From NCBI GenBank assembly GCA_913062845.1, contig CAJXVZ010000028.1, forward strand, positions 1-37,479: a stretch of DNA of 37,479 bases, read 5' to 3'. The position numbers and the translations under genes are program-made. The notes beneath the pieces were generated by a model that was not told the DNA's origin, did not search any database, and saw only the letters and a program-made list of their open reading frames with translations. The stretch is from an uncultured Psychroflexus sp. Its GTDB lineage: Bacteria; Bacteroidota; Bacteroidia; Flavobacteriales; Flavobacteriaceae. Below are positions 229 to 23,329 of the stretch, one piece after another (positions within the stretch are counted from its first letter, which is position 1; every line of letters starts with the position of its first letter).

Positions 229-2655
229 ATGATTTTAAAGTTTTTAATCACACTTATATTTAGTTTAGCTCCTTTTGTTTTATTATCTCAAAATGTTCCG
301 CCAACCATAAGTATTTCTGAAACCCAAACCTTTTGCCCGGGAGTTGGAAATCCCATCGTATCTACAATAAACATCGATGATCCTGATGCCGGAGATACTT
401 CCTTAGAAGAAATATCAATTCAGATATCAGAAGGCTATCAAATTGGTTTTGACCTTTTGTCTTACAATGGTTCTAATCCCAACATAACTGCTGTATGGTC
501 TCAAAATCAGGGAAGCCTTACCTTGCAAGGCCCCGCAACATTTTCAGAATTTGAAAATGCTGTTTTAAATGTTGTTTTTTCAACAACACAAGAGGAATTC
601 GACAGCGATAGGAGTATATCTATAAATTTAGGTAATGCCAACTATCTGCCTTCTACCGGTCATTATTACTTTTATGTTGAAGGTGTAGGAATAACCTGGA
701 CTGAAGCCAAGGCCGCAGCAGAAGCACAAACTTATTTTGGTTTACAGGGTTACCTGGCCACTATAACATCAATTGAAGAAGCACAGTTGACCGGTGAGCA
801 AAGCACAGGAACCGGCTGGATTGGTGGATCAGACCAACAGCAGGAGGGCACCTGGATCTGGGAAACAGGTCCGGAGCAGGGAGATGTATTCTGGGTAGGT
901 CTTGCCAATGGTAATGCGCCAAATGGTGCATTTGCCTTTTGGAATACCAATGAACCTAATCAGGCGGGAGACGAAGACTATGCGCATATTACAGACCCTT
1001 CTATTGGAAATCCAGGTTCCTGGAATGATTTGTCTAATGAGGGCGATCCATCAGGTCCCTATCAGCCTCAGGGTTATATCGTGGAGTTTGGAGGTTTGCC
1101 AGGAGAACCGGAAGTAAGCTTGTCTGCTTCCCTTACTATGATAATGCCCCAAAATAACATTGATGATGTAGAAGCTTGTCAGGGAGATACCTTTACGGTT
1201 TCAGTAGATTCAAATGCAGATACACTGGAATGGTTCGCAACAGAATCCTCTACAGAAGTCCTGAATACCGGACAAAACTATACCACTCAGGTCAGTACAA
1301 CGACGACTTTTTGGGTTCAGCCAATTTATAATGACTGCCAAAATCTAATTGACAGGATTCCTGTCACCGTAAGTGTAAATTCAAACCCTATAGCTAATCC
1401 TATTACCATCACTGAATGTACTAATAACCAAAATCTGTTTACTGCAGATTTTAACCTTAATACTTATGTTGATCTGATTACAGATGGCAGTGGTACAGAA
1501 AATCAAATTGTAAATTTTTATGTAGATGAAAATCTGACTGAACAAATTACCGAGGAAGTTTATACCAATACTGAAAACTTTCAGACCATTTACGCTGAAG
1601 TTATCAACCCGGATACACAATGTCAAAATACGGCGCCACTCACTTTAGAGGTTGTGTTTGAGGATTTAGGAAGTACAGACATATCAGCCTGCGATACCGA
1701 TAATGATGATGGCATCACGCTTTTTGACCTTAGTGAAGCCGATGAGTTTTTTATTTTACAAGCTCAGGGAACACAAAATAATTCAGCTGTTTTTTATTAT
1801 GAAACTTTGGAAGATGCCCTTGCTCAGCAAAATCCATTACCAACCAACTATGAGAATACCAACCCGGACAATCAGCAAATTTTTGCCCGGGTCAATAACT
1901 TAAACGGATGCCTTGGATTAGGAACATTGAATTTATTAATCAATAATCCACCGGTTTCAGCCAGTGAAGAAACCATTTATTATTGCACTGATACCTTTCC
2001 TGACCTCATTACAATTGATGCTGGTGTAGAAGATACAAGCACAGAAGAATTCAATTACCTGTGGTCAACCGAAGAAACCACCCCAAGTATACAAATTAAC
2101 GAAATTGGCACATATACTGTTACAATCAGTAACCAGTTTGGATGTTCGACAGAACGCATCATAATCGTTGAGGCCTCTGAACAACCGATTATAAACGATG
2201 TCATGATAGAAGACTTTTCATCAAACAATTCAATAAGTATATCAGCCTCAAATTCAACAAATAGCCAATTAGAATATTCCCTTGATGGAGAAAACTATCA
2301 GGATTCTAATGTTTTTTCAAATCTTTCTGAATTTGAATACACGGTTTATGTCAGAGACAAAAATGGCTGTGGAATAGACTTGAAAAGGGTTTATTTACTG
2401 GATTACCCACAATTTTTTACTCCAAATGGCGATGGGATAAACGACACCTGGCAGATCATAAACAGCGAACAGGAAATTTTCAGCAAAATATACATCTTTA
2501 ACAGGTATGGAAAAATGGTTGCCGATATTAAGCCATTTGGTCCCGGATGGGACGGCACTTTTAATGGGAAAGCGATGCCATCCAATGATTATTGGTTTAA
2601 ACTGGAACGTGAGGACGGAAGAGTATTTACAGGACATTTTACCTTAAAGAGATAA
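229..2655 (+). CDS. T9SS type B sorting domain protein with C-type lectin domain
   Basis: The 808-residue exported protein has a Sec signal peptide (about residues 1-21, ending LLSQ). A C-type lectin-like domain spans about residues 145-287: it begins with a Y-Y-F-Y strand, continues through T-W-T-E-A-K, L-A-T-I and W-I-G-G, and closes with N-E-P-N and W-N-D-L. Cysteine-bearing Ig-like or adhesin-type repeats follow (about 310-720). The C-terminal sorting domain (726-808) starts FFTPNGDGIND and ends HFTLKR. It is probably secreted or surface-attached through T9SS and binds a carbohydrate or protein ligand; the ligand is unknown. It follows another T9SS cargo gene with the same kind of C-terminus, so the two may be a tandem pair. 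The ATG is the first after a stop-rich leader and gives a complete signal peptide. Confidence 0.9.
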   Translation: MILKFLITLIFSLAPFVLLSQNVPPTISISETQTFCPGVGNPIVSTINIDDPDAGDTSLEEISIQISEGYQIGFDLLSYNGSNPNITAVWSQNQGSLTLQGPATFSEFENAVLNVVFSTTQEEFDSDRSISINLGNANYLPSTGHYYFYVEGVGITWTEAKAAAEAQTYFGLQGYLATITSIEEAQLTGEQSTGTGWIGGSDQQQEGTWIWETGPEQGDVFWVGLANGNAPNGAFAFWNTNEPNQAGDEDYAHITDPSIGNPGSWNDLSNEGDPSGPYQPQGYIVEFGGLPGEPEVSLSASLTMIMPQNNIDDVEACQGDTFTVSVDSNADTLEWFATESSTEVLNTGQNYTTQVSTTTTFWVQPIYNDCQNLIDRIPVTVSVNSNPIANPITITECTNNQNLFTADFNLNTYVDLITDGSGTENQIVNFYVDENLTEQITEEVYTNTENFQTIYAEVINPDTQCQNTAPLTLEVVFEDLGSTDISACDTDNDDGITLFDLSEADEFFILQAQGTQNNSAVFYYETLEDALAQQNPLPTNYENTNPDNQQIFARVNNLNGCLGLGTLNLLINNPPVSASEETIYYCTDTFPDLITIDAGVEDTSTEEFNYLWSTEETTPSIQINEIGTYTVTISNQFGCSTERIIIVEASEQPIINDVMIEDFSSNNSISISASNSTNSQLEYSLDGENYQDSNVFSNLSEFEYTVYVRDKNGCGIDLKRVYLLDYPQFFTPNGDGINDTWQIINSEQEIFSKIYIFNRYGKMVADIKPFGPGWDGTFNGKAMPSNDYWFKLEREDGRVFTGHFTLKR

Positions 2656-5044: not shown

Positions 5045-6538
5045 TTAATTTAAATATTCCATGAGCTTATCTGCAATATTTCTGTTGTCCGATAATCTCG
5101 GAATTTTGTTTTGTCCACCGAGTTTCCCGATGGACTTCATATAAAGATTAAAACAGTTCTCCGGTAAAGACCTGATAACAATCTCTCTTAGCATATTACC
5201 AGCCCTCAAGTCTTTATAATAGCTGTTTTGATGAATAAGCGAGTCATCTATTGTTTTGGCAAACGCCACTAATTCCTTTGGTGTTTTATTGAATTCGATC
5301 CACCATTCATGGTATGGCAAACCTTCCTCGGGATTCACCTGTGGTGCAACAGTAAACTCATTTATAGAGCAACTGTGTTTTGCACAAGCATCCATCATTG
5401 CTTTTTCAACTTCACTGCCAATTACGTGTTCTCCAAAAGCAGAAATAAAGTGTTTTAGTCTTCCGGAAACCCTTACTTTAAAGGGTTTTAAACTTGTAAA
5501 CTGAATTGTATCACCAATATTGTAGCGCCACAAGCCCGCTGAAGTTGAAATGATCAAAGCATAATTGACTCCTTTTTCGACCTCTTCCAGGCTGTAAACC
5601 TTTGGGTTTTCATCAAAGAACTCATCTGATTTAATAAACTCATAAAACATTCCGGAATTAAGCTGAAGTAACATGCCATTATCTTCCTGAGAATCCTGAA
5701 AAGCAAAAAAACCTTCTGATGCAGGATAGAGTTCAATGCTGTTTACCGGTCTTCCAATGAGCTGCTCAAACTTTGGTCTGTAAGGTTCGTAATTTAGACC
5801 GCCATAAATAAAAAGTTCCAGATTTTTAAAGAGTTTTCCAATAGGCTTTCCGGAGGCATCCACAAGTTTTTCGAAGTAGGTTTGCACCCAGGAAGGTATA
5901 CCGCTGATGATGGTCATGTCCTCTTTGATGGTTTCTTTGACAATTGCATTTACCTTGGTTTCCCAGTCATCAATGCAATTCACTTTCCAACTCGGTAAAC
6001 GGTTTTTTTGTAAATAGGAAGGAACAAAATGGGCAACAATTCCAGATAAACGCCCTAGCTTTATGCCATTTTTTTCAGTTAATTCCGGACTTCCCTGGAG
6101 AAAGATCATTTTACCATCAACAAAACGGCTTCTGCCCGTTTCGGCGATGTAGCACAAAATAGCATTACGTGCAGCTGCAATATGCATCGGCATGGATGCT
6201 TTGGTGAGAGGAATATATTTTGCGCCGCTCGTTGTTCCTGATGTTTTGGCAAAATAAAGCGGCTTGCCCGGCCATAATATATCTTTTTCACCCTGAACAG
6301 CTTTGTCAATATAAGGTTTTAATTCTTCATAATCCCTCACAGGAACTTTTTCTGCAAAATCCTGTGGTGTTGATATGCTTTCAAAATTATGGTCCTTCCC
6401 GAAGGCTGTTTCTTTTGCATGACTTATGAGCCATCTGAAAGCTTTCTGTTGAGTTTCAAAAGGCTTACCGGCCCATTTATCAATTTGACGTCTGGTCCAA
6501 TTGGCATAAATTTTTGCAGCAAAAGATTTTATAGACAT
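5045..6538 (-). CDS. GH3 family acyl-adenylate-forming enzyme
   Basis: The 497-residue protein matches the GH3 family, named for plant auxin/jasmonate amido synthetases, which activate a carboxylate with ATP and join it to an amino acid. Visible motifs: the ATP-binding loop K-T-S-G-T-T-S-G at residues 98-105, the Y-P-A-S-E-G adenylate motif in mid-protein, and R-Y-N-I-G-D before the C-terminal domain. Bacterial GH3 substrates are mostly unknown, so the acyl substrate cannot be named. Its ATG overlaps the stop codon of the upstream M23 gene by one base (TAATG), implying translational coupling. No signal peptide is visible, so it is probably cytoplasmic. Confidence 0.9.
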   Translation of the reverse strand: MSIKSFAAKIYANWTRRQIDKWAGKPFETQQKAFRWLISHAKETAFGKDHNFESISTPQDFAEKVPVRDYEELKPYIDKAVQGEKDILWPGKPLYFAKTSGTTSGAKYIPLTKASMPMHIAAARNAILCYIAETGRSRFVDGKMIFLQGSPELTEKNGIKLGRLSGIVAHFVPSYLQKNRLPSWKVNCIDDWETKVNAIVKETIKEDMTIISGIPSWVQTYFEKLVDASGKPIGKLFKNLELFIYGGLNYEPYRPKFEQLIGRPVNSIELYPASEGFFAFQDSQEDNGMLLQLNSGMFYEFIKSDEFFDENPKVYSLEEVEKGVNYALIISTSAGLWRYNIGDTIQFTSLKPFKVRVSGRLKHFISAFGEHVIGSEVEKAMMDACAKHSCSINEFTVAPQVNPEEGLPYHEWWIEFNKTPKELVAFAKTIDDSLIHQNSYYKDLRAGNMLREIVIRSLPENCFNLYMKSIGKLGGQNKIPRLSDNRNIADKLMEYLN

Positions 6539-7579: not shown

Positions 7580-7608
7580 TTGTATATCAATTAAATAAAA
7601 TACTTTTG
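7580..7608 (+). promoter_or_regulatory. Bacteroidota-type promoter for the amidoligase operon
   Basis: TTG at 7580-7582 and TACTTTTG at 7601-7608 are separated by 18 bases, a full match to the TTG/TAnnTTTG consensus. Transcription would begin about 10-15 bases upstream of the TTG start codon at 7632, giving a very short leader. This supports the start of the first gene and the whole five-gene unit beginning here. Confidence 0.6.
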
Positions 7609-7631
7609 CAGAAGTTTATTAAACATTAGAA

Positions 7632-8336
7632 TTGAAAGAAGAATATTTTAAGTGGTACTCGCCAACATTGAGTCAGGACATTGAGATGTTGGTTTTTGGG
7701 CATCAGGGATATCCTGTAATTTTATTTCCTACTACAGGAGGACAATATTACGAATGTAAGGACAGAGGCTTGATAGAATCTGCCAGATGGTTTTTGGAGC
7801 AAGGCCTCATTCAGATCTACTGTCCGGACAGTATCAATAACATGAGTTGGTACAACAAAAGCCTGCATCCGGCGGATAAAGTCAAAAATCATATATGGTA
7901 CGATACATTTATCATGAACGAGCTGGTGAACAAGATCTGTCACGAGAAACACATGCAAAAAGTGGCTGTGGCAGGGCCAAGTTTTGGAGGTTATCAGGCG
8001 GCAAATTTTGCATTCAGACATCCCGATAGGGTTAGCCATATGTTTAGCATGAGTGGTGCTTTCGATATAAAGTCATTTATGGATGGCTATTATGATGATA
8101 ACGTTTACTTTAACAATCCTGTAGATTATATGCCAAATGCAGATCATCCTGATTTATGGCAAATGGATATTGTCTTAGGTGTTGGGGAATGGGACATATG
8201 TCTGGAGGCCAACCAAAAAATGGCCAGGATACTAAACGATAAAAATATAGCATTTTGGTGGGATGAGCACCGATGGGCTGAACACGACTGGCCCTTATGG
8301 CACAGAATGTTTCCCCACTATTTATCAAAAATTTAA
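7632..8336 (+). CDS. alpha/beta-hydrolase, esterase D-like family
   Basis: The 234-residue cytoplasmic protein has no signal peptide. The nucleophile elbow is G-P-S-F-G-G with Ser117; a likely acid is the Asp of the G-E-W-D-I-C stretch; the histidine is probably in E-H-D-W-P-L-W near the C-terminus. That order is typical of the putative-esterase (PF00756-like) branch. The start is TTG at 7632: no in-frame ATG lies upstream and the promoter ends just before it. As the first gene of a ligase operon it may hydrolyse or transfer an acyl or peptide group on the product; the substrate is unknown. It is 19 bases from the next gene. Confidence 0.85.
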   Translation: MKEEYFKWYSPTLSQDIEMLVFGHQGYPVILFPTTGGQYYECKDRGLIESARWFLEQGLIQIYCPDSINNMSWYNKSLHPADKVKNHIWYDTFIMNELVNKICHEKHMQKVAVAGPSFGGYQAANFAFRHPDRVSHMFSMSGAFDIKSFMDGYYDDNVYFNNPVDYMPNADHPDLWQMDIVLGVGEWDICLEANQKMARILNDKNIAFWWDEHRWAEHDWPLWHRMFPHYLSKI

Positions 8337-8355
8337 ACAACTAATCTAAATACAA

Positions 8356-9381
8356 ATGAAAAAAATAGGCATTTTATTTGGTAAGGAAGACACTTTTCCA
8401 TGGGCTTTTATTGATCGCGTAAATCAAAAAATAGAGGAGCAGGGTATCAAGAATATGATGGCAGAAGCTGTTTCTATTGATGCTGTAGAGCAAGGAAACT
8501 CAGACGAGTATGCGGTTATCATAGACCGTATTTCTCAGGATGTACCATTTTACAGAGCATTTCTTAAAAATGCCGCCATTACAGGCACTGTAGTCATTAA
8601 CAATCCGTTCTGGTGGAGTGCAGATGAGAAGTTCTTCAACAATGCACTGGCACAAAAAATAGGAGTACCTGTACCAAAAACATTTATTTTGCCAACTTCA
8701 AAACACCCTGAAAATACGGATGGAAACTCCTTTAGAAACCTAAAATACCCTTTCAACTGGGAAAGAATGTTTGAGACTATAGGCTTTCCTGCCTATATGA
8801 AACCACACGATGGCGGTAGCTGGAAAAGCGTTTACCGTGTAGAAAATCCGGATGATTTATGGGCTAAGCATGGTGAAACAGGAGACTTGGTCATGATGCT
8901 TCAGGAAGAAATTAAATTTGAATTATATTTCAGATGTTATGTTTTAGGTACAGACAATGTCCACATTATGCAGTATGAACCAAGAAATCCATTTCATGAA
9001 AGATATGTCAGGAATGGACCAGAGATTGACAAAAAGATTCTGGATCTGGTCGAAAAATATTGTATCAAACTCAATAAGGCCTTAGGTTATGACTTTAATA
9101 CTGTAGAATTTGCAGTAAGAGAAGGCGTTCCTTATGCGATAGATTTTTGTAATCCTGCTCCTGATGCTGATATCCATTCTGTTGGAAAAGACAATTATGA
9201 GTGGATTGTAGAAAATGCAGCAAATCTTGCCATAGCAAAAGCTAAAACCTATAAAAAAGGAAAAATGAACCTGACCTGGGGAACATTTGTTTCAGACCAG
9301 GTTAAAACGCCTGTGAAAAGAAAAGCACCGGCTAAAAAAAGTGCATTCAAGAAAACATCTAAAGCTAAAGCGAAAAAATAA
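8356..9381 (+). CDS. ATP-grasp ligase with a lysine-rich C-terminal tail
   Basis: The 341-residue protein has an ATP-grasp fold related to the RimK/D-Ala-D-Ala ligase group. An N-terminal G-I-L-F-G-K-E-D strand-loop is followed by Y-M-K-P-H-D-G-G-S-W-K (phosphate-binding loop), the M-L-Q-E-E linker and the Mg-binding end V-E-F...I-D-F-C-N-P-A-P-D. The usual E-x-N ligand pair appears here as D-x-x-N. Such enzymes join a carboxylate to an amine through an acyl phosphate. The last 25 or so residues are almost only K, A, P, S, T and R, like a histone H1 tail, which is unusual for this family. The gene lies between the hydrolase and the YbdK-like ligase, all in one direction. Confidence 0.85.
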   Translation: MKKIGILFGKEDTFPWAFIDRVNQKIEEQGIKNMMAEAVSIDAVEQGNSDEYAVIIDRISQDVPFYRAFLKNAAITGTVVINNPFWWSADEKFFNNALAQKIGVPVPKTFILPTSKHPENTDGNSFRNLKYPFNWERMFETIGFPAYMKPHDGGSWKSVYRVENPDDLWAKHGETGDLVMMLQEEIKFELYFRCYVLGTDNVHIMQYEPRNPFHERYVRNGPEIDKKILDLVEKYCIKLNKALGYDFNTVEFAVREGVPYAIDFCNPAPDADIHSVGKDNYEWIVENAANLAIAKAKTYKKGKMNLTWGTFVSDQVKTPVKRKAPAKKSAFKKTSKAKAKK

Positions 9382-9422
9382 TTGCTTAATTAAGCGAAGC
9401 ATTAGTCAATCAAGAAATAAAA

Positions 9423-10517
9423 ATGGAGTTTACTTTAGGTGTTGAGGAAGAATATCAGGTCATAGATCCACAAACCCGGGAATTAACGTCTCACGACCAG
9501 CAAATTGTAACGGAAGCATCGAAAGTTCTCGATGAAAGGGTAAAAGCAGAGATGCATCAGGCCGTGGTCGAGGTTGGCACACACATTTGTAAGGATATTC
9601 AGGATGCTAAGGAACAGATTACACTCCTACGGGGAACCATATCTGATATTGCAAATTCACTCGGCTTTGAAATAGCGGCCGCCGGAACGCATCCTTTCTC
9701 AGAATGGGAAAAGCAATTGCTTACACCAAATCCCAGGTATGATCAAATCATTAATGAGTTACAAGATACAGCTAGGTCAAATCTTATTTTTGGACTTCAT
9801 GTGCATGTTGGCGTAGAAGACAAGTCTCTGGCTATGCACCTGACTAACTCTTTAAGGTATTTTTTACCCCATTTTTACGCTCTTTCAACCAATTCGCCCT
9901 TTTGGGAAGGCAGGAATACGGGTTTTAAGTCATTTAGAACAAAAGTATTTGATAAATTTCCAAGAACAGGTATTCCCGGAACTTTTCAGACTTATTCTGA
10001 ATACCAACACTATCTTGATATTCTCATTAAGACCGGTTGTATAGATAACCCCAAGAAAATTTGGTGGGATGTAAGGATCCATCCATTTTATCCAACCATT
10101 GAAGTGAGGATTTGTGACGTTCCTCTCACCATTCAGGATACCGTCAGTATTACTGCATTAATACAGGCTACTGTTGCAAAACTCTTCAAATTAAGAGAAC
10201 AAAATCTCAACTTCATAAATTATCACCGTGCACTCATCAATGAGAACAAGTGGAGAGCTGCAAGATATGGCGTAGAGGGCAAGATGATAGATTTTGGAAA
10301 AGAGCAAGAAGTAAGCACAAGGTTTTTAATCAGAGAATTACTGGACTTTGTAGACGATGTTGTAGATGATCTGGGCTCTAGACACGAAATTGAAAAAATT
10401 GAGGATATTCTCGAAAAAGGTTCAGGAGCGGATAGACAAATAGAAGTATACCGAAAAAGTAAAGATTTGGTTGAAGTTGTAGACTACATTACGGCGCAAA
10501 CCATCTCAGGAGTTTAA
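9423..10517 (+). CDS. carboxylate-amine ligase, YbdK/GCS2 family
   Basis: The 364-residue protein is full length for the GCS2 (COG2170) family, weak relatives of glutamate-cysteine ligase with a glutamine-synthetase-like fold. Diagnostic motifs are G-V-E-E-E at residues 6-10, H126-V-H128-V-G, and E-V-R-I-C-D-V-P near residue 225, which supply metal- and ATP-binding residues. It should join an amino acid or other amine to a carboxylate using ATP; the true substrates are unknown. E. coli YbdK has only weak glutamate-cysteine ligase activity, so I do not assign glutathione synthesis. The stop codon overlaps the next ATG by one base (TAATG). Confidence 0.92.
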   Translation: MEFTLGVEEEYQVIDPQTRELTSHDQQIVTEASKVLDERVKAEMHQAVVEVGTHICKDIQDAKEQITLLRGTISDIANSLGFEIAAAGTHPFSEWEKQLLTPNPRYDQIINELQDTARSNLIFGLHVHVGVEDKSLAMHLTNSLRYFLPHFYALSTNSPFWEGRNTGFKSFRTKVFDKFPRTGIPGTFQTYSEYQHYLDILIKTGCIDNPKKIWWDVRIHPFYPTIEVRICDVPLTIQDTVSITALIQATVAKLFKLREQNLNFINYHRALINENKWRAARYGVEGKMIDFGKEQEVSTRFLIRELLDFVDDVVDDLGSRHEIEKIEDILEKGSGADRQIEVYRKSKDLVEVVDYITAQTISGV

Positions 10518-11335
10518 TGACAAAAATGAATAAAAGATTAGCTGTTTTAGATATGAATAACGATGCGCCTAATCAGGGATTAAGGTGTATTATTGAAATT
10601 GTTCAGAAATACGATTTTGTTATAGATTATCAGGTCTTTAATGTTAGAGGGAAAAACGAAATTCCCGATACAAGTTTCGATATTTATATTTCAAGTGGTG
10701 GCCCAGGTTCTCCATTAGAAGACGGAGAATGGAGGAAACCTTACCTGGAGCTTATGCAAAAATTATGGGATATCAATCGGTTTGGTTCCGATCAAAAAAA
10801 ACATGTCTTCTTTATATGTTATTCATTTCAGGTGATCTGTGATTATTTTGAATTAGGAACCATAAAGCCCAGGAGAAGTACATCTTTTGGAATTCTTAGA
10901 GTTCATAAGACCCAAAATGGTAAAAAAGATATTATTTTAAAAGGATTGCCGGACCCATACTATGCTGTAGATTCCAGAGACTTTCAATTGGTTCAGCCTA
11001 AGCTCAAGGTTTTTAAACAGCACGGCGCAAAAATATTGAGCCTTGAAAAAATAAGAACCCATGTTGAATTGGAACGTGCGATTATGGCCGTTCGCTTTTC
11101 AAACGAATTTGTTGGGACGCAATACCATCCTGAAGCTGAACCTGTAAGTATGGAAGCACATTTCATGAAGGAAGAAAACAAAAAGAAAGTCATTGAAAGT
11201 TTTGGGGATGAAAAGTACAATCAGATGATGTATAGAATGAACCATCCTGACAAATTAGATCTCACTTACAACACAATATTACCTCGCTTTATAAAAAATG
11301 CCCTCGAAGCAAAGTTGGTTGAGCAACAATTTTAA
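10517..11335 (+). CDS. class I glutamine amidotransferase-like protein
   Basis: The 272-residue protein has the class I (triad) GATase fold: S-S-G-G-P-G-S-P as the oxyanion-side loop near residue 56, the nucleophile Cys101 in F-I-C-Y-S-F-Q, and His204/Glu206 in Q-Y-H-P-E-A-E. The triad is intact, but the usual G-x-C-x-G-x-Q elbow has lost both glycines. It may therefore hydrolyse something other than free glutamine, for example a gamma-glutamyl bond, or supply ammonia to one of the neighbouring ligases. An alternative start is the Met at codon 4. It overlaps the YbdK-like gene by one base and is followed 9 bases later by the next gene. Confidence 0.85.
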   Translation: MTKMNKRLAVLDMNNDAPNQGLRCIIEIVQKYDFVIDYQVFNVRGKNEIPDTSFDIYISSGGPGSPLEDGEWRKPYLELMQKLWDINRFGSDQKKHVFFICYSFQVICDYFELGTIKPRRSTSFGILRVHKTQNGKKDIILKGLPDPYYAVDSRDFQLVQPKLKVFKQHGAKILSLEKIRTHVELERAIMAVRFSNEFVGTQYHPEAEPVSMEAHFMKEENKKKVIESFGDEKYNQMMYRMNHPDKLDLTYNTILPRFIKNALEAKLVEQQF

Positions 11336-11344
11336 AAATTCAAT

Positions 11345-12547
11345 ATGATAGATTCAATAAGAGAAGCTTATAATAATTATTTCACAGAGGAAAGATATAA
11401 TAATTTTCTCAGGGATATTGAAGAGACCTATCATTATACACCAAAATTCAGAATTGCTGAAACACCGGTTTTTATAGACAAAGTATTTAAAAATCAGCTT
11501 ATTGAAGCCTGTAATGACATCATAAAAGTCATTGAAAGACCTGATTTTAAATCCTTAACAGAAGGTGCATTTTTAGATCCTACTCATAAAATTCCTAAAG
11601 AGAATGATATTCCAAAATTTGTTCAATTTGATTTTGGGATTTGCGAAGATGAAAACGGTCATCTTTCACCTAAACTTATTGAATTACAAGGATTTCCAAC
11701 TTTATATGGATTTCAGATTTTTTTGAATAAGATGTTTAGAAAGCATTTTGGAGAAGTCATTCCTGAAAATTTTCATCAGCATGTTCGCGGTATGCCACAT
11801 ATGGAATATGTAGAAATGCTCAGAGAAGAAATAGTGGGCGATACAGACCCCAAACATGTTGTTTTACTGGAAATTGATCCTCATCATCAGACAACAGCGG
11901 TGGACTTTTATGTTACCCGTGATATTTTGGATATTGAAATTGTTTGTGTAAGGGATATCATCAAAAAAGGCAGATCGCTTTATTACAAAGCTGAAAATGG
12001 CGATGAAATTAAGATAGAAAAGATTTTTAATCGGGTAATTTTTGACGAATTATATCAACGCAAAGACTTAAAGATGTCCTTCAGTTTTCAGGATGATTTG
12101 GATATAGAATGGATTGGTCACCCCAACTGGTTTTTCAGGATCAGTAAGTATTTGTTGCCTTTATTGAAAGGCAAATATGTGCCCAAATCCTTCTTTTTGG
12201 ATAAGCTGGAAACCCTTCCGAAAGACCTGGAAAACTATGTGCTCAAACCCATGTTCTCATTTGCCGGAGCAGGTGTTCACATCAACCTGACACCAGAAAT
12301 TATCGATTCTATTGAAAATAAATCCAACTATATTTTACAGGAAAAAGTGAAGTACGCACCTGTTGTAAAAACCAAAGATACAGAAGCCAAAGTTGAAATA
12401 AGAATGATTATGATTCATAACTCAAAAACCAACAAAATTGAAATTGCAAGCAATCTTGTGAGGCTGAGTAAAGGAGAAATGGTTGGTGTGAGATACAATA
12501 GAGACAAGACTTGGGTTGGAGGATCTACAGCTTATTTTGAAATTTAA
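11345..12547 (+). CDS. uncharacterised ATP-grasp-like protein
   Basis: The 400-residue protein has no signal peptide and I do not recognise a named family. Its second half looks like an ATP-grasp core: Y-V-L-K-P-M-F-S-F-A-G-A-G-V-H-I (lysine followed by a glycine-rich loop, near 303), Y-I-L-Q-E-K-V (the linker where adenine binds, near 329), E-I-R-M-I-M-I, and a closing block V-R-L-S-K-G-E-M-V-G-V-R-Y. The first half contains L-I-E-L-Q-G-F-P-T-L-Y, reminiscent of glutathionylspermidine-synthase-like enzymes. It closes the operon and would give the pathway a third ligase. The ATP-grasp assignment is an inference from motifs. Confidence 0.65.
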   Translation: MIDSIREAYNNYFTEERYNNFLRDIEETYHYTPKFRIAETPVFIDKVFKNQLIEACNDIIKVIERPDFKSLTEGAFLDPTHKIPKENDIPKFVQFDFGICEDENGHLSPKLIELQGFPTLYGFQIFLNKMFRKHFGEVIPENFHQHVRGMPHMEYVEMLREEIVGDTDPKHVVLLEIDPHHQTTAVDFYVTRDILDIEIVCVRDIIKKGRSLYYKAENGDEIKIEKIFNRVIFDELYQRKDLKMSFSFQDDLDIEWIGHPNWFFRISKYLLPLLKGKYVPKSFFLDKLETLPKDLENYVLKPMFSFAGAGVHINLTPEIIDSIENKSNYILQEKVKYAPVVKTKDTEAKVEIRMIMIHNSKTNKIEIASNLVRLSKGEMVGVRYNRDKTWVGGSTAYFEI

Positions 12548-12675: not shown

Positions 12676-12706
12676 TTGTCAATCATTCAAATATGGGTTA
12701 TATTTG
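12676..12706 (+). promoter_or_regulatory. promoter of the acyl-CoA dehydrogenase gene
   Basis: TTG at 12676-12678 and TATATTTG at 12699-12706 with a 20-base spacer fit the Bacteroidota consensus. An upstream in-frame ATG at 12704 lies inside the -7 box, so translation should start at 12743. Confidence 0.55.
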
Positions 12707-14848: not shown

Positions 14849-15646
14849 TTATAGCTCTCTGACCCAAATATTGCGATAACTTACCCCACTTTGATCCTGA
14901 TGATCCTGAAGTTTGATCGGGGCTTTACCATGAGCTTCGTTTTTAGGCCAGCCGATATATTCGGTAGTGCCTTCGATTTCAAAATGGTCCTGGATCAAGA
15001 CCCCATTATGCAAAACCGTTATGGTCCCAGATTTGGTCTTTTTGCCGTTGTCATCAAATTCAGGTTCGTGGTAAATGATATCATAAGTATTCCAATCTCC
15101 GGTGGGCGAAGACGCCATAGCCAGAGGAATGGATTGTTTATAGATTGAACCCACTTGCCCGTTCACATAAGTGTCATTGTCGTTATTATCCAGAATTTGA
15201 ACTTCATATCGGTTTTGTAGAAATACCCCTGAGTTACTTTTATTTTGACCTGTTGCCGAGCTCTCAGGATTTGAACGCCATTCCAGATGAAGCTGTACAC
15301 TTCCAAAATTACGTTTAGTCTGTATATCGCCGGTCTTGTCTTTCACGGTCATACTGCCGTCTTCGTTTAGTGTCCATTTGACAGCAGTTGAATCCACAGA
15401 AGATATCCATTCATCAAAGCCAGAGCCATCAAAAAGCACAATAGCGTCTGAAGGAACACCTGTTTCAGGGTTTACATTCACTTTGGGCGGTTGCGGTTCC
15501 CAGACTTCGGTTTCTTCCGGGGTTGTTGGTTCTTGCTGGCCATTAAGGACTAACTCACCAACATCTATGCCCTCATTTTGTTTTGATGATGGCTGGCAAC
15601 CAAAAAATACAATTCCAAGTGATATCAGTAAAAAAGATTTCTTCAT
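14849..15646 (-). CDS. DUF1080 (3-keto-disaccharide hydrolase family) lipoprotein
   Basis: From ATG at 15646 this is a 265-residue lipoprotein with signal peptide and lipobox V-F-F-G-C (Cys17). A TTG two codons upstream would also be in frame but is less likely. The mature part is a DUF1080 jelly-roll: L-F-D-G-S-G-F-D-E-W near residue 70, the L-H-L-E-W-R strand, N-S-G-V-F-L-Q-N-R-Y-E-V-Q-I-L-D, and the closing I-K-L-Q-D-H-x-x-x-V-S-Y-R-N-I-W-V. The family is associated with cleavage of 3-keto-glycosides after oxidation of the sugar C3. Its position at the end of the minus-strand sugar operon fits. The spacer after the signal is rich in E, P and Q. Confidence 0.88.
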   Translation of the reverse strand: MKKSFLLISLGIVFFGCQPSSKQNEGIDVGELVLNGQQEPTTPEETEVWEPQPPKVNVNPETGVPSDAIVLFDGSGFDEWISSVDSTAVKWTLNEDGSMTVKDKTGDIQTKRNFGSVQLHLEWRSNPESSATGQNKSNSGVFLQNRYEVQILDNNDNDTYVNGQVGSIYKQSIPLAMASSPTGDWNTYDIIYHEPEFDDNGKKTKSGTITVLHNGVLIQDHFEIEGTTEYIGWPKNEAHGKAPIKLQDHQDQSGVSYRNIWVREL

Positions 15647-15656
15647 GATCAATCGG

Positions 15657-16712
15657 TTAAATTCCTAAAATTTTTCTCAAATAATTTTCATCCGTATCTC
15701 CACCACCGGCAAAATCGTCAAAAGCTTTTGTAGTGGCTTCAATGATATGTTGTTGGATAAAAGGTGCGCCTTCTCTAGCGCCTTGCTCGGGGCTCTTTAC
15801 AACACATTCCCATTCGAGAACGGCCCAGACATCGCAGCCGTATTCGGTAAGTTTAGAAAACACGCGTTTAAAATCGACCTGACCATCTCCGGGCGAGCGG
15901 TATCTTCCGGCACGGTCTTTCCAGTCGTTATAGCCACCAAAAGCCCCTTTCTTTCCGTTAGGTCTGAATTCTGAATCTTTAACGTGAAAGGCTTTGATAA
16001 ATTCATGGTAATGGTCAATGTATTTGATGTAGTCCAGCTGCTGCAGTACAAAATGCGAAGGATCATACAAAATATTTACACGTTTGTGGTTGCCGGTCGC
16101 TTCCAGAAAACGCTCGAAGGTATCGCCATCGTGTATGTCTTCCACAGGATGAACTTCATAACAAACATCAACACCAGAGTCTTCAAAGGCATTTAGTATC
16201 GGCGTCCAGCGGTCAGCCAGTTCTTTAAAGCCTAGATCGATTAGGCCTTTGGGTTGTTGCGGCCAGGGATGCATGACCGGCCAAAGCAAAGAGCCTGAAA
16301 ATGTAGCATGAGCTTTTAAACCCAGACGTTCACTTGCTTTGGCGGCGTATTTTACTTGTTGAATGGCCCATTCTGTTCTTGCTTTGGGCTTGCCTTTGAC
16401 TTCATCCGGCGCAAAGACATCAAACATCAGGTCATGTGCAGGATGCACTGCCACCAGTTGCCCTTGGATGTGCGTAGAAAGCTCTGTGATTTCCAATCCA
16501 TAGCTGTTTACTTTACCTTTCAACTCATCGGCATAGGTTTGGCTTTCTGCACATTTTTGTAAATCCATTAAACGGGTTTCGTTGCTCGGAATTTGAATGC
16601 CTTTATAGCCTAAATCACTCGCCCACTGACAAAGATTGTCAAGATTATTGAAGGGCGGTTTTTCATCCATAAACTGGGCTAAAAATATGGCCGGACCTTT
16701 TATGGTTTTCAT
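15657..16712 (-). CDS. sugar phosphate isomerase/epimerase family TIM-barrel protein
   Basis: The 351-residue cytoplasmic protein belongs to the xylose-isomerase-like TIM-barrel family (AP_endonuc_2). Likely metal ligands are the Glu of C-Y-E-V-H-P, the Asp/His of L-Y-D-P-S-H-F, the His of F-H-V-K-D and the Glu of V-L-E-W-E. The family isomerises, epimerises or dehydrates sugars and keto-sugars; the exact reaction is not visible. In this cluster it probably handles a 3-keto-sugar or its breakdown product. It lies 10 bases upstream of the DUF1080 start and 55 bases after the oxidoreductase gene. Confidence 0.9.
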   Translation of the reverse strand: MKTIKGPAIFLAQFMDEKPPFNNLDNLCQWASDLGYKGIQIPSNETRLMDLQKCAESQTYADELKGKVNSYGLEITELSTHIQGQLVAVHPAHDLMFDVFAPDEVKGKPKARTEWAIQQVKYAAKASERLGLKAHATFSGSLLWPVMHPWPQQPKGLIDLGFKELADRWTPILNAFEDSGVDVCYEVHPVEDIHDGDTFERFLEATGNHKRVNILYDPSHFVLQQLDYIKYIDHYHEFIKAFHVKDSEFRPNGKKGAFGGYNDWKDRAGRYRSPGDGQVDFKRVFSKLTEYGCDVWAVLEWECVVKSPEQGAREGAPFIQQHIIEATTKAFDDFAGGGDTDENYLRKILGI

Positions 16713-16741
16713 AAGTTATTCATTTTTAAATTAATTGATTC

Positions 16742-16767
16742 ACGCAAAGTCGCAAAATCGCAAAGAC
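16742..16767. repeat. short CGCAAA triplicate repeat
   Basis: Three successive 8-base units of the form (A/T)CGCAAA(G/A) fill the 55-base gap between two genes of the minus-strand operon. Confidence 0.4.
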
Positions 16768-17913
16768 TTATAAATTATCCTCAATCTCTACCCAAACATT
16801 GCCTTTATGATGGGATTCAACGGCTTTTTCTATAAAATTCATGCCTCTGGCGCCGTCTATAATCGTTGGAAATTCACCGTGATCGTAATCTTCTCCGTTT
16901 ACTGCTTTGGCGACGCCTTTGTAAATATTACCCATGGCATCGAAAATCCCCTCTGGATGTCCGGGAGGCAGTTTGGTGCCATCCAGAGATAAATCTGAAT
17001 TGTAAGCATGTCCGGGTTTTAAAATTTGCATGGCTTGACCTTCCTGTATATAATACAAGTAGTTGGGGTTTTCTTGCTCCCATTTTAGACCAGCTTTGTC
17101 GCCATAAATTTTGACGATAAAACTATTTTCTTCACCGGTAGCGATCTGACTGGTGCAAATCACGCCTTTAGCCTGATTGCTGAGTCTAAGCAAAACCGTG
17201 GCATCTACATCCATTTTATTATCGCTATAGACAAAATTCAGGTCAGATAAGACTGACTGAATTTTTAATCCGCTGACGTATTCCAGCATGTCGAACGCGT
17301 GCGTACCTATATCGCCCAGACAACAGCTGATACCGGATTTATCCGGGTCTAATCGCCAGGTTGATTGTCTTTGACTTTCATCATGGATGATGGGATTGAT
17401 CCAGCCTTGATAGTATTGCGCATCTACTTTTTGGATTTTGCCTAAAGCCCCGTTTTTTACCATTTCCCGCATTTGCCTCACCATCGGATAGCCGGTATAG
17501 GTGTAGGTTACTGCAAAAACTTTATTATTATCTTTTAAAGTATGATAAAGGATTTTAGCTTCTTCAAAAGTAGTGGTCATGGGTTTTTCACATATCACAT
17601 GAAAACCACTTTCCAGTAACTTTTTGGCCATGGGGAAGTGCAGAAAGTTAGGTGTAAGTACAGAGACCACTTGCATACGTTCTGCTTCGGGGAGCTTTTG
17701 CTCTTCTTCAACCAAAGTGTCTAAGTCTTTGTAAATCCGATTTAAAGGCATGCCGATTGATTTGGCAAACTCAAGACTTTGATTGACATCTTGATTAAAA
17801 ACGCCACCAACCAGCTCATATTTGTCATACATCGCAGAGGCAATGCGGTGTAAAACACCAATCAAAGAATCGCCGCCTCCGCCGAGAATTCCCAGTTTAA
17901 TTTTTTTAGACAT
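16768..17913 (-). CDS. Gfo/Idh/MocA family NAD(P)-dependent oxidoreductase
   Basis: The 381-residue protein has an N-terminal Rossmann fold (K-L-G-I-L-G-G-G-G-D-S-L-I-G), the signature V-I-C-E-K-P-M-T near residue 110 whose Lys acts in catalysis, and a C-terminal G-D-I-G-T-H-A-F-D-M substrate-domain motif. No export signal is seen, so it is cytoplasmic. Members oxidise or reduce a sugar hydroxyl/keto group; in 3-keto-sugar clusters they commonly interconvert the C3 hydroxyl and ketone. It is separated from the upstream MFS gene by two bases, a clear operon junction. Confidence 0.92.
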   Translation of the reverse strand: MSKKIKLGILGGGGDSLIGVLHRIASAMYDKYELVGGVFNQDVNQSLEFAKSIGMPLNRIYKDLDTLVEEEQKLPEAERMQVVSVLTPNFLHFPMAKKLLESGFHVICEKPMTTTFEEAKILYHTLKDNNKVFAVTYTYTGYPMVRQMREMVKNGALGKIQKVDAQYYQGWINPIIHDESQRQSTWRLDPDKSGISCCLGDIGTHAFDMLEYVSGLKIQSVLSDLNFVYSDNKMDVDATVLLRLSNQAKGVICTSQIATGEENSFIVKIYGDKAGLKWEQENPNYLYYIQEGQAMQILKPGHAYNSDLSLDGTKLPPGHPEGIFDAMGNIYKGVAKAVNGEDYDHGEFPTIIDGARGMNFIEKAVESHHKGNVWVEIEDNL

Positions 17914-17915
17914 AA

Positions 17916-19142
17916 CTAAGATTTATATTCAATGTTTTCATTTTTAAAAAAGAGTCCAAATAAGACCAAAACGCCTAAAGCAAAGAGCGCTGGGAAAATC
18001 CATATGTCTTTCCAGGCGTGAAGATCACCATCAATGAGATTAGCATCCACGACCTGACCGGCCACCCAAAAACCTATCAGCATTCCTACACCGTAAGTTG
18101 CAAGAGTAATGAGGCCTTGTGCGGCACTTTTAAACTTGTCTCCGGCTTTAGAATCTGTGTAAATCTGTCCGGAGACAAAGAAAAAGTCGTAACAAATCCC
18201 GTGAAGTGCAATACCTATTACCAGCATAAAAAACAAATCGCCGGCGTTGCCGTAAGCAAAAAGCGCATAACGTATCGCCCAGGCCAGCATACCAAAGATC
18301 AGTGTTTTTTTGAAACCATATTTGGTGAAAAATAAAGGTAATAAAAGCATGAACAGGACTTCAGAGACCTGTCCCAGAGATGCCCATGCCGTAGAATTTT
18401 CAACTTTGATTTCCGTAAGGAATGGACTGAGGTTTTGGTAGTAGAATGCCAATGGAATACATATTAAAACCGAAGACAGGAAAAACACTAAAAAATTTCT
18501 GTCTTTCAACAGTTTTAGGGCATCAAGACCTAAAATATCAGACAAACTCATTTTTTCACCTTTGTTTTGAGGTGGTGTTTTTGGCAACACAAAACTGAAA
18601 ACACCCAAAACCGCAGAAGCAATAGACACCATCAAAAAGGTTTTGGACAGCATGCCTTGAGCAATGTTTTCCTGTGAGTCCCACATGAACACAAAACTGA
18701 TAACCAGGCCTGAAACTATCCAGCCCAAAGTCCCAAAAACCCTCACATAAGGAAAGAATTTTGACGGGTCTTTCATTTGTCTGAAAGAAATAGAATTCAC
18801 CAAAGCCAAGGTTGGCATATAGGCGATCATGTAACCTAAGACATAAGGATAGAAATTTGAAAAATCTGTAGCATTGGCCATTTGGTACATCAATACCGCA
18901 CCAATAAGGTGAAGCACACCCAGAATACGTTCGGCATTAAAAAAACGATCAGCGATCAAACCAATAATAAAAGGTGCAATAACAGCACCCCAGGATTGTG
19001 TAGAAAATGCCATGGCTGTTTCAGCACCGGTAGCATCAAGATTGTTACCCATAAAAGTACCTAAAGTTACAAACCAGCCACCCCAGATGAAAAACTCTAA
19101 AAACATCATGACGGAAAGCTGCGTAAAGCGTAATGGATTCAT
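17916..19142 (-). CDS. MFS transporter, nucleoside/H+ symporter (NupG-like) family
   Basis: The 408-residue, very hydrophobic protein has about 12 predicted membrane helices. The N-terminal R-F-T-Q-L-S-V-M-M-F-L-E-F-F-I-W-G-G-W-F is typical of the Bacteroidota branch of the nucleoside:H+ symporter family. In this context it probably imports a sugar or a keto-sugar rather than a nucleoside; that is inference from neighbours. It lies between the TIM-barrel lipoprotein gene (12 bases upstream) and the oxidoreductase gene (2 bases downstream) in the minus-strand operon. Confidence 0.9.
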   Translation of the reverse strand: MNPLRFTQLSVMMFLEFFIWGGWFVTLGTFMGNNLDATGAETAMAFSTQSWGAVIAPFIIGLIADRFFNAERILGVLHLIGAVLMYQMANATDFSNFYPYVLGYMIAYMPTLALVNSISFRQMKDPSKFFPYVRVFGTLGWIVSGLVISFVFMWDSQENIAQGMLSKTFLMVSIASAVLGVFSFVLPKTPPQNKGEKMSLSDILGLDALKLLKDRNFLVFFLSSVLICIPLAFYYQNLSPFLTEIKVENSTAWASLGQVSEVLFMLLLPLFFTKYGFKKTLIFGMLAWAIRYALFAYGNAGDLFFMLVIGIALHGICYDFFFVSGQIYTDSKAGDKFKSAAQGLITLATYGVGMLIGFWVAGQVVDANLIDGDLHAWKDIWIFPALFALGVLVLFGLFFKNENIEYKS

Positions 19143-19154
19143 AGTAAAATGGTT

Positions 19155-20120
19155 TTAGTTGATGGTTTCAGCGGATTTTAAAAGCAATTGTTTTGTCGCC
19201 TCAATGCCTTCTTTTTCAGATAAGCGCTCACCTTCATATTCAACGCCGACAAAACCGGTATATCCAGAGTCTTTAACCATTTGCATGATTCTGAAATAAT
19301 CTAATGTGGTTTCATTACCTTTTTCATCAAAATCATAGGATTTGGCGCTGACGGCTTTAGCTTCTTTTAGCATCATTTCAATGCCTTTATACTTGTCTGA
19401 AAACTCTTCAACACATTCGCCCCATTTTTCTCCATCTTTGCGTTTCACACACCAGTTACCAAAATCGGGTAGTGTCCCGCAATTATCCATACCCACCATA
19501 CCAATTGCTTCCATGAGGAGAAATGCATCAGACGACAACCAGCCGTGGTTTTCGCAGAGTATATTTATGTTTTGAGTCGTGGCATAGGCTGATAATTTTT
19601 TCAGACCATCTACCACAGCAGGTAACCATTCTTTAGGATCATTGGTGCCAAAAGTATTAACTCGAATAGAGTGGCAGCCTAACTTTTTTGCGGCGTCTAT
19701 CCATTTTTTATGGTTTTCTACAGCTTGGTCTCTTTCAGCCTCATCCGGGCTAGCCAAATTACCTTCATTATCAACCATAATCAGTACATTTTGCATACTG
19801 TGCTTTTCGCTAAAAGTCTTCAATGAATCTATAACTGTGTCAAAGCCAAGGCTATCTATTTGTTTTGAATAAAGATGATTGACATACTCCAGTCCTTCAA
19901 ATCCCATGTCTTTGGAGATTTCAGCAAACTTGAAAGGACTTACGCCATCATCATTAAAGGTACGATGTAATGACCATTGTGCTAATGACAATTTAAAAAA
20001 AGGAGAACTGGCTTCAACCTCAGATTGTTCTTCAGAGGTTTTTTTCTGATCCTTTTTAATATCCTTACAGCTTACACTCATTAGCATAAGCATTAACATG
20101 AAAAAAACTGAAGGCTTCAT
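19155..20120 (-). CDS. exported sugar isomerase/epimerase-like TIM-barrel lipoprotein
   Basis: The 321-residue protein has a lipoprotein signal (M-L-M-S-V-S-C, Cys19), a short K/E-rich spacer and a xylose-isomerase-like TIM barrel with likely ligands in I-L-C-E-N-H-G, L-P-D-F-G-N and G-V-E-Y-E-G-E. It is distinct from the cytoplasmic TIM-barrel protein of the same operon, which suggests that part of the sugar conversion happens in the periplasm. It is the first gene of the minus-strand operon, divergent from the GMC dehydrogenase with 133 bases between starts, where the two promoters must lie. Confidence 0.88.
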   Translation of the reverse strand: MKPSVFFMLMLMLMSVSCKDIKKDQKKTSEEQSEVEASSPFFKLSLAQWSLHRTFNDDGVSPFKFAEISKDMGFEGLEYVNHLYSKQIDSLGFDTVIDSLKTFSEKHSMQNVLIMVDNEGNLASPDEAERDQAVENHKKWIDAAKKLGCHSIRVNTFGTNDPKEWLPAVVDGLKKLSAYATTQNINILCENHGWLSSDAFLLMEAIGMVGMDNCGTLPDFGNWCVKRKDGEKWGECVEEFSDKYKGIEMMLKEAKAVSAKSYDFDEKGNETTLDYFRIMQMVKDSGYTGFVGVEYEGERLSEKEGIEATKQLLLKSAETIN

Positions 20121-20253
20121 TTTGTGGAATTTATTATAAAGATATGCTCAAAAATGCTAAAAATTTATGGAATTGAAAAAATTCACCGGCAAAATAGTAA
20201 AATAAAAGTCAAAAGTGTATTTTTAAACCTCAATGTAAAAATTGAACTTAGAA

Positions 20254-21978: not shown

Positions 21979-21989
21979 ACGATATTTTC

Positions 21990-22592
21990 ATGAAAAGAAG
22001 AGATGCCATAAAACGTTTAGGCTTGGCTTCAGGAGCTGTAGTGGCCACACCAGGCCTATTGGGTATGCTGAACAGTTGTTCATCTCCTGCCGAAGTATGG
22101 ACGCCTCAGTTCTTAACCGTACCTCAGGGAAAAATCCTGAAAGGTTTAGTGGATGTGTTTTTGCCGGAAACGCCCGAATTACCGTCAGCCAAAACATTGA
22201 ATGTCCCTGAATTTATAGACCGTTACATTGCAGAAGTATACGATGAAAAAGATCAGAAAAGATTCAAAGCTGCTTATGAAATAACCATGGCTGAATTGAA
22301 AACATTTACAAAAAAGGAATTAGAAGAGGTGGAAAAAGAAGACCTTAAAGTGTTTTTAGATGAGTATTTGAAAGTCAAAGGCGAAGTCGATACTGACAGA
22401 GAGAAAAATCCTGATTTTGACGGAATGACGACATCAGAATGTCTTGATAGCCTCAAGTGGATGACCGTTAATGCTTACCTGAACACCCAAAAGATAGGCG
22501 AAGAAGTTCTGGCTTACGATCCAGTTCCCGGGGCTTATTATTGCGGAGATCTCGATGAACTTACGGGCGGAAAACGATGGTCTTTGAGTTGA
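21990..22592 (+). CDS. gluconate 2-dehydrogenase subunit 3 family protein
   Basis: The 200-residue protein starts M-K-R-R-D-A-I-K-R-L-G-L, a twin-arginine-type signal, and has a possible lipobox at L-N-S-C (Cys30). The rest, with D-V-F-L-P-E-T-P and a C-terminal Y-Y-C-G-D-L, fits the small subunit of flavoprotein sugar dehydrogenases. It acts as the export and maturation partner of the GMC subunit, whose stop codon is 11 bases upstream. Together they would form a periplasmic, membrane-tethered sugar dehydrogenase. The downstream region carries GACCC...GGGTC palindromes that could end transcription. Confidence 0.9.
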   Translation: MKRRDAIKRLGLASGAVVATPGLLGMLNSCSSPAEVWTPQFLTVPQGKILKGLVDVFLPETPELPSAKTLNVPEFIDRYIAEVYDEKDQKRFKAAYEITMAELKTFTKKELEEVEKEDLKVFLDEYLKVKGEVDTDREKNPDFDGMTTSECLDSLKWMTVNAYLNTQKIGEEVLAYDPVPGAYYCGDLDELTGGKRWSLS

Positions 22593-22599
22593 TGACATT

Positions 22600-22788
22600 C
22601 GACCCCTTCAGGGTCGATAGATATGATTAGGGTATTTTTATAGATATTTAACCCTTTCTGGATCAGGGTGTCAATTTTATAGCGCTATTTTATATATCAT
22701 AAATTATTTATAAACATATTACGACCCGGAACGGGTCAAATACTTATGGAATAATACACATCCTTTTTTCACGACCCTGAAAGGGTCG
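22600..22788. repeat. REP-like palindromes upstream of the Y1 transposase
   Basis: Four imperfect palindromes of one type occur here: CGACCCCTTCAGGGTCG (22600-22616), a degenerate ACCCT...AGGGT copy (22651-22669), GACCCGGAACGGGTC (22723-22737) and CGACCCTGAAAGGGTCG (22772-22788, 7-bp stem with a GAA loop). They alternate in orientation and vary by compensating changes in the stem, as expected for REP sequences kept as hairpins. Confidence 0.8.
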
Positions 22789-22864
22789 AATGATTGTGGC
22801 TCAAATTGGTCTTGAATTTTTGGCATAAGAATAATAAATTTGATTTTGTATTAAACATCATGGC

Positions 22865-23329
22865 ATGGCTGGGACATATTCACAGATTTACATTCAGATT
22901 GTTTTTGCGGTTGGCCACAGAAGAAACTTAATCCATCCCAGTATTGAGGATGAAATTTATAAATACATCACAGGAGTTATTACGAATAAAGGGCAAAAAC
23001 TATTAGCAATAAATGGTATGCCGGATCATATTCATATTTTATTAGGCATGAAGCCTTCGTGTTGTTTATCCGATCTGGTAAGGGAAATCAAAAAATCTTC
23101 TAATGAGTTTATCAATACCAAATGGCCTTCAAAACATAAGTTTTATTGGCAGGGTGGTTTTGGTGCTTTTTCATATTCTTATTCTGCACTGGACAACGTC
23201 ATCCGATACATACAAAATCAAAAACAACACCACCGCAAGAAATTGTTTAAACAGGAATACAAAGAATTCCTGACGAATTATAAAGTTGAATATGATGAAA
23301 AATATTTATTTGAATGGTTAGACGATTAG
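22865..23329 (+). mobile_element. RAYT/IS200-like Y1 transposase
   Basis: The 154-residue protein is a single-domain HUH/Y1 transposase. The metal-binding motif is H55-I-H57 (in P-D-H-I-H-I-L) and the nucleophile is Tyr115 in V-I-R-Y-I-Q-N-Q. The length and the I-Q-I-V-F-A-V N-terminus fit IS200/IS605 TnpA and REP-associated tyrosine transposases. At least three palindromes precede and several follow the gene, with the nearest pair in opposite orientation (22772-22788 and 23352-23368). This favours a RAYT domesticated with its REPs over a single IS200 copy. All catalytic residues are present, so it may be active. It separates the dehydrogenase genes from the second DUF1080 gene. Confidence 0.85.

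Follow-up and report, generated by a model that had tools for sequence, protein, structure and literature searches.

Multi-amidoligase operons, in which ATP-grasp ligases are combined with GCS2-type ligases, were reportedly predicted by Iyer and colleagues in 2009. Such operons place amide-bond ligases of several unrelated families next to hydrolases. Excerpts of a general account state that linked ligases often perform successive ligations (PMC4431377), and a passage of another study reads a GCS2-sized ligase family beside a 'thiol peptidase' resembling glutamine amidotransferases (GATases) as a sign of the synthesis of glutathione or related peptides (PMC2588565). Here, an operon of this kind was analyzed in a stretch of 37,479 nucleotides from an uncultured Psychroflexus sp. 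(contig CAJXVZ010000028.1; this whole stretch is called the window). It encodes an alpha/beta-hydrolase (H), an ATP-grasp ligase (A1), a GCS2 ligase (G), a class I GATase-like protein (T) and a second ATP-grasp ligase (A2). In Bacteroidota, the five genes form a genuine set with wide conservation, and the operon is a phylum-wide variant of the known predicted kind of multi-ligase operon. We consider it fairly probable that it forms the core of a Bacteroidota multi-amidoligase module, which would build a small peptide-like metabolite through one ATP-dependent ligation after another and would include hydrolases for trimming or turnover.

The phylum-wide spread, an eight-gene form and the gene substitutions described below are reported from the present analysis. 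Literature searches, whose coverage excepted the 2009 survey, found no description of this Bacteroidota operon, and an earlier description is possible.

Conservation of the operon in Bacteroidota

Positions 7632-12547 of the window contain five plus-strand open reading frames in the order H-A1-G-T-A2, separated by 19, 41, -1 and 9 nt (Table 1). This arrangement agrees with an earlier, sequence-only reading of the window, which had noted five same-strand genes with gaps of -1 to 41 nt. Occurrence was counted by whole-genome searches within this phylum, always in the same 296 sampled Bacteroidota genomes, and gene order was read from named loci, namely the best 80 of 586 relatives, a selection biased to close relatives. 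Rows of 5 out of 113 genomes were dropped for A1 (best E 2e-6 to 7.5e-4; the divergent genomes G007, G087, G160 and G287 were kept) and those of 13 out of 83 genomes for T (best E 2e-6 to 9e-4).

Table 1. Position of the operon genes and associated features
Feature	Position	Strand	Length	Basis and remarks
H, alpha/beta-hydrolase (PF00756 Esterase)	7632..8336	+	234 aa	TTG start; PF00756 36.2 bits, cut-off 22
A1, RimK/LysX/D-Ala-D-Ala-ligase-like ATP-grasp ligase	8356..9381	+	341 aa	lysine-rich tail; alignment, AlphaFold, Foldseek
G, YbdK-type GCS2 carboxylate-amine ligase	9423..10517	+	364 aa	PF04107 GCS2 218.8 bits, cut-off 21
T, class I glutamine-amidotransferase-like	10517..11335	+	272 aa	PF00117 41.6 bits, cut-off 22.8; full triad
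A2, glutathione-synthetase-fold (GSS/GspS/YgiC/Cp1B-like) ATP-grasp ligase	11345..12547	+	400 aa	AlphaFold, Foldseek, motifs
Candidate Bacteroidota-type promoter	7580..7608	+		TTG 7580-7582, 18 nt, TACTTTTG 7601-7608; TAnnTTTG match, a motif too common for proof
EST2-M17-AG4 set in the window's own genome	contig C18, L272:2497-5915			three genes together

A1 was found in 108 genomes, G in 103, A2 in 92 and T in 70. A1 and A2 occur together in 89 genomes (of the 92 with A2) and together with G in 84, and none of these three genes is present in 176. Each of the 70 genomes with T carries A2 or its substitute, a circularly permuted ATP-grasp gene (CPg) described below. Of the 80 best named loci, 70 have the complete order H-A1-G-T-A2, including those of Flavobacterium, Dyadobacter, Algoriphagus, Chryseobacterium, Polaribacter and Winogradskyella, and an inner gap exceeds 1000 nt in 2 of these 70. 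Several of the other 10 are interrupted by contig ends. Among the 92 A2 loci, 25 have the full set of five close to A2, and A1, G and A2 are neighbors in 43, so that, together with the fully ordered loci, at least two different amide ligases are conserved as neighbors, the mark of a multi-amidoligase operon.

No partner gene lies near A2 in 36 of the 92 A2 loci, which would suit the view that the genes adjoin by chance or for regulation only and serve no common pathway. However, 34 of these 36 genomes have A1 elsewhere and 34 have G elsewhere, so a genome tends to retain the whole group of genes where they are dispersed. With the fixed order of the named loci added, an arrangement by chance or for regulation only is hardly credible. 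The co-conservation is far beyond chance; its absence from other genomes would, by the sequence-only reading, have refuted the proposal. A partial guard against shared descent is given by families f1, f16, f34 and f38, each of which contains both carriers and non-carriers, the latter counted only where explicitly named.

Three amide-bond ligases of different types

G lies above the cut-offs of two YbdK-type models (NF010039, 527.9 bits, cut-off 371; TIGR02050, 320.9 bits, cut-off 176.4). It carries the motif GVEEE at residues 6-10, in which G6, E8, E9 and E10 are invariant in 23 of 23 proteins and which matches GhExE, given as the GCS2-family motif in an excerpt of PMC2588565. The glutamate-cysteine ligase equivalogs are under cut-off (NF010043, 357.4 against 409 bits; NF010042, 276.1 against 427; TIGR02048, 70.9 against 249). 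By its TIGR02050 score G shares the GCS2 subfamily of YbdK of E. coli but falls under the equivalog cut-off of that protein (NF010040, 270.4 against 425).

A1 is under every Pfam cut-off and is RimK-like (TIGR00768, E 4e-8, 32.8 bits against a cut-off of 143.4). The D-Ala and D-Ser ligase models gave at most 19.8 bits, and the RimK and Ddl family cut-offs were not reached. For the AlphaFold model (25-row alignment, pLDDT 85.3, low in the tail), DdlA was the best Foldseek match (3.9e-14), and D-Ala-D-Ala ligases, LysX/ArgX, RimK and graspetide ligases were also matched, with TM scores of 0.5-0.6 by query length. A1 is thus predicted to have the fold of LysX, RimK and D-Ala-D-Ala ligase with weak sequence similarity, but it is below all of their family cut-offs and constitutes a separate family marked by the conserved blocks NNPFWW and DFxNPAPDA. 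A lysine-rich C-terminal tail (window 9300-9381) is present in about half of 25 aligned A1 proteins and absent from many orthologues. The A1 protein of locus L032 is about 90 residues longer than that of the window.

The fold matches of A1 to graspetide ligases and to LysX/ArgX with LysW, and the presence of the lysine-rich tail raise the idea that A1 tags a protein, or its own tail, with amino acids or peptides. This role is very unlikely, as the tail is missing from so many orthologues and the operon has no carrier-protein or precursor-peptide gene. Inside the operon, to which this check was confined, there is no further same-strand gene for a precursor of a graspetide or other ribosomally synthesized and post-translationally modified peptide (RiPP) or for a nonribosomal peptide synthetase (NRPS) module, and with no gap longer than 41 nt there is not enough space for one.

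A2 reached no sequence family cut-off; only a sub-threshold match to GSP_synth was obtained (PF03738, 16.0 against 29.3 bits), and in a profile search of PDB sequences YgiC was the sole match and a weak one (E 0.01). Its AlphaFold model (26-row alignment, pLDDT 92.7, pTM 0.91) was more informative. Foldseek returned 21 PDB matches at E <= 0.001, namely glutathione and homoglutathione synthetases, nematode effectors of that fold, GspS-type enzymes, YgiC and Cp1B, and the next match followed at E 0.15. The best match is yeast glutathione synthase (1m0w, 1.1e-13, TM 0.64), and 7uk8 (1.0e-11) and 2io7 (1.0e-10) also represent the fold shared with eukaryotic-type glutathione synthetase, GspS and YgiC. 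A2, previously described only as an ATP-grasp-like protein, is therefore predicted from the model to be of the glutathione-synthetase/glutathionylspermidine-synthetase fold. It is 9-16% identical to its 21 significant matches, and its E-x-(N/Q) motif at the presumed metal site, mapped from motifs, reads E113-x-Q115, a putative counterpart of the metal-binding E-x-N. D96, E113 and Q115 are invariant in 26 of 26 A2 proteins. YgiC has KPIFSREG where A2 has KPxFSFAG.

The likeness of A2 to Cp1B of fungal E-64 biosynthesis lies in the glutathione-synthetase-like fold (9cjn, 2.5e-9). As stated in excerpts of PMC12568646, Cp1B acts in a non-NRPS amide pathway and joins epoxysuccinate to an amino acid, Cp1D forms the second amide, and alanine changes of Cp1B D141, E163 and N165 abolish or reduce activity. 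Matched by motif, A2 D96, E113 and Q115 may correspond to these three residues. Unlike A2, Cp1B is fungal, and those excerpts name no GCS2 or GATase partner for it.

Some variation was observed around A2. At L069 (6637-9237), one reading frame encodes a sodium:solute symporter domain (SSF) followed by an A2-type ligase, and the gene just upstream of A2 in L057 looks similar to this symporter part by appearance; the fusion may hint at an imported substrate. An Amidohydro_3-type gene is located immediately upstream of A2 in 11 loci (L101, L103, L105, L108, L115 and L117-L122) and upstream of T in L087; the Pfam check covers the members of L101 and L087.

All of the ligases scored below the NCBIfam equivalog cut-offs for glutathione synthetase, glutamate-cysteine ligase and peptidoglycan ligases, G being a member of the broad Pfam family GCS2. 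Both standard glutathione synthesis and a peptidoglycan ligase identity were rejected on these cut-offs; such an identity would, by the sequence-only reading, have refuted its proposal.

Hydrolases, accessory genes and gene substitutions

The TTG start of H is supported by several relatives that share the same first residues. Its nucleophile elbow is GPSFGGY (GxSFGG), and among 17 aligned proteins D188 is invariant and H218 nearly invariant. T is a class I GATase on two counts, a PF00117 score above cut-off and a complete Cys-His-Glu triad, as the sequence-only reading had concluded. C101, Q105, H204 and E206 are invariant in 18 of 18 aligned proteins, the triad being C101/H204/E206.

A class I GATase and an ATP-grasp enzyme work together in carbamoyl-phosphate synthetase. 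T could likewise be a glutaminase subunit that feeds ammonia to A2 (or CPg) and converts a carboxylate to a carboxamide, in which case the product would be the amide of a peptide or acid. The GGPGSP and CxSFQ motifs and the triad of T, which we take to be as in glutamine-using GATases, fit such a role. T adjoins A2 or CPg on the same strand with a gap of at most 500 nt in 53 of the 70 genomes that have T, never occurs without one of the two, and shares a locus with A2 even where neither A1 nor G is close by (L048, L054, L062 and L071). However, T is located away from them in the other 17 genomes, mostly on another contig or far off, and 37 genomes with A2 or CPg have no T. Its nearest named models, PRK07567 and PRK09065, are generic and far under cut-off. 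Moreover, in five T-less loci a gene for an M29-type peptidase lies between G and A2, which better fits a hydrolase role. Ammonia supply is therefore a serious rival, if the less probable one.

These five loci (L035, L043, L045, L096 and L098) have the M29-type gene after G, in the place of T, and T is absent from the genomes concerned. PF02073 was above cut-off in the single member tested. M29-type rows were obtained for 37 genomes, of which 31 at about 85-130 bits were dropped and six above 500 bits were kept as the tight form; T occurs in none of these six. Judged by eye, the A1 tree places L096 apart from L035, L043 and L045.

A second substitution concerns A2. In 15 of the 19 genomes with A1 and without A2, CPg adjoins A1; the usual order is H-A1-CPg-T, and another esterase frequently follows. 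At that strength CPg occurs in none of the 89 genomes with both A1 and A2; a weaker relative in the A2-bearing genome G137 (379 bits) is the one row of 16 that was dropped.

In many species the module seems to include three further genes, EST2 (a PF00756 esterase), M17 (a leucyl aminopeptidase) and AG4 (an ATP-grasp_4 ligase). They adjoin the operon in L032, the locus of the nearest relative, in Chryseobacterium and its kin and in others, and 24 of the 80 best named loci have the complete set adjacent to the operon or close to it. In 17 loci AG4 is located upstream of H (gap at most 307 nt), and in 11 it is downstream of A2 (gap 11 to 4446 nt; convergent in 10 of the 11). In 80 hand-picked genomes, which are no random draw, 34 of the 55 carriers had AG4, compared with none of the 25 non-carriers. 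The set on contig C18 is probably a further part of the module in the window's genome. The count of three ligases given by the sequence-only reading thus holds within the window, but a fourth ligase of the ATP-grasp type, M17 and a second esterase have to be added from contig C18 and from the vicinity of those 24 loci.

Proposed pathway

Three to four ligases of different types, hydrolases of the peptidase and esterase kind and five window proteins free of export signs fit the stepwise building and turnover of a small peptide. In the module that we favor, G would activate a carboxylate, probably the gamma-carboxylate of glutamate, and couple an amine to it, and A2 and A1 would extend the product at its carboxylate via an acyl phosphate. 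AG4, where present, would add one unit. T, M17 and, in some lineages, the M29-type peptidase or an amidohydrolase would act on amide bonds of the intermediates or product, which is perhaps a gamma-glutamyl peptide. The sequence-only reading had proposed a small peptide-like product with the hydrolase and GATase trimming it or supplying ammonia. The co-conserved ligases fit peptide assembly and support this reading in part, and the GATase may act in trimming or in ammonia supply.

Several observations weigh against an assembly pathway shared by these genes. To our knowledge, a substrate, product or phenotype is known for no member. Nine genomes have G without A1 or A2, five have A1 and A2 without G, and neither T nor the tight M29-type gene occurs in 28 of the 84 genomes with A1, A2 and G. 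AG4 was not found in 21 of the 55 carriers searched. The serine of H is present in 15 of 17 aligned proteins and missing in L066 and L079. The co-occurrence tables are uncorrected for shared descent, and the A1 tree places the CPg loci in one clade; therefore, the CPg swap may be a single event. A2 and its presumed substitute CPg are also without clear profile similarity (hhalign probability 2.15%, E 0.022), on which grounds a recent paralogy of the two was rejected.

A further alternative is a glutathione-like cycle, in which G and A2, with A1 and AG4, would make a gamma-glutamyl tri- or tetrapeptide, T would strip the gamma-glutamate, M17 would split the remaining dipeptide and the PF00756 hydrolases would act on thioesters. 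GGP1 belongs to the class I GATases, and S-formylglutathione hydrolase, a PF00756 protein, acts on thioesters. The membership of G in the gamma-glutamyl ligase family and the predicted fold of A2 agree with the cycle, as do parallels from plants, where excerpts of the literature describe GGP1 as a gamma-glutamyl peptidase that degrades glutathione (PMC10243980) and a leucyl aminopeptidase as having Cys-Gly dipeptidase activity (PMC7852106). However, 12 genomes retain T but lack G, namely four with A2 (G037, G064, G158 and G178) and 8 of the 15 with CPg; T as the reverse of G was rejected for this reason. In addition, the sequence matches of H and EST2 among solved structures are feruloyl and other esterases, and no S-formylglutathione hydrolase by that name is among these matches. 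BshC, the bacillithiol synthase, occurs whether or not a genome carries the operon (in 80 genomes selected for this comparison, 47 of the 48 carriers and 31 of the 32 non-carriers have it), which also speaks against the cycle. Taken together, we regard it as unlikely.

Since the presence of BshC does not depend on the operon, the idea that the operon replaces BshC or bacillithiol synthesis was rejected. A thiol product is possible. In a more speculative and improbable extension, the module would make an unnamed, phylum-wide, glutathione-like gamma-glutamyl peptide through a four-ligase relay of G, A2 or its permuted substitute, A1 and AG4. The peptide would be recycled by T or the M29-type peptidase and then M17, and would be kept beside bacillithiol for a role that bacillithiol does not serve.

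Operon boundaries and neighboring genes

The TTG and TACTTTTG boxes ahead of H, 18 nt apart, presumably fit the -33/-7 promoter form of Bacteroidota. The sequence-only reading had seen one good promoter here. The promoter is only plausible, because TAnnTTTG is frequent in the window (44 occurrences against about 50 expected) and the strict two-box pattern has no match at 7580-7608. A similar box, TATATTTG, is located at 12699-12706 ahead of the downstream acyl-CoA dehydrogenase gene, so the transcription unit probably ends at A2. The start of that gene is at least 156 nt downstream of A2 and is probably the ATG at 12743 and not the TTG at 12704.

Strongly hydrophobic stretches are absent from all five proteins (19-residue means of at most 1.19), which, read without a signal-peptide program, is consistent with the earlier statement that export signals are missing. 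A repeat search of the operon gave just short two-copy matches. A role in phage defense was rejected, with 0 of 5 proteins matching PADLOC anti-phage models at E <= 0.001. Spread by mobile elements was likewise rejected: a tblastn search with A1 at E 1e-5 gave no match among 72,556 plasmid and 50,697 phage records, a pattern scan of viral contigs yielded no confirmed relative, and a search of plasmid records with A2 gave no match.

The upstream neighbors, an M23 peptidase and a GH3-type enzyme, are oriented opposite to the operon. The latter (window 5045-6538) resembles the lyso-ornithine lipid synthetase OlsH with 387.8 bits, under the cut-off of 620. Further away, window 229-2655 encodes a large protein that combines an Ig-like domain with a C-terminal domain of the type IX secretion kind (CHU_C). 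Two 3-keto-disaccharide hydrolases, xylose-isomerase-like barrels, a GFO/IDH/MocA oxidoreductase, a symporter, a GMC oxidoreductase and a gluconate 2-dehydrogenase subunit 3 are encoded at window 14849-24909; these sugar-catabolic genes look like a 3-keto-glycoside pathway.

Significance

The operon marks a probable metabolite pathway in about one third of the sampled Bacteroidota, as judged from A1, and the carriers include Flavobacterium, Dyadobacter, Algoriphagus and Chryseobacterium. This makes it a concrete target for metabolomics, and the roles of the individual enzymes can be approached directly, step by step, through the natural substitutions and the eight-gene form.

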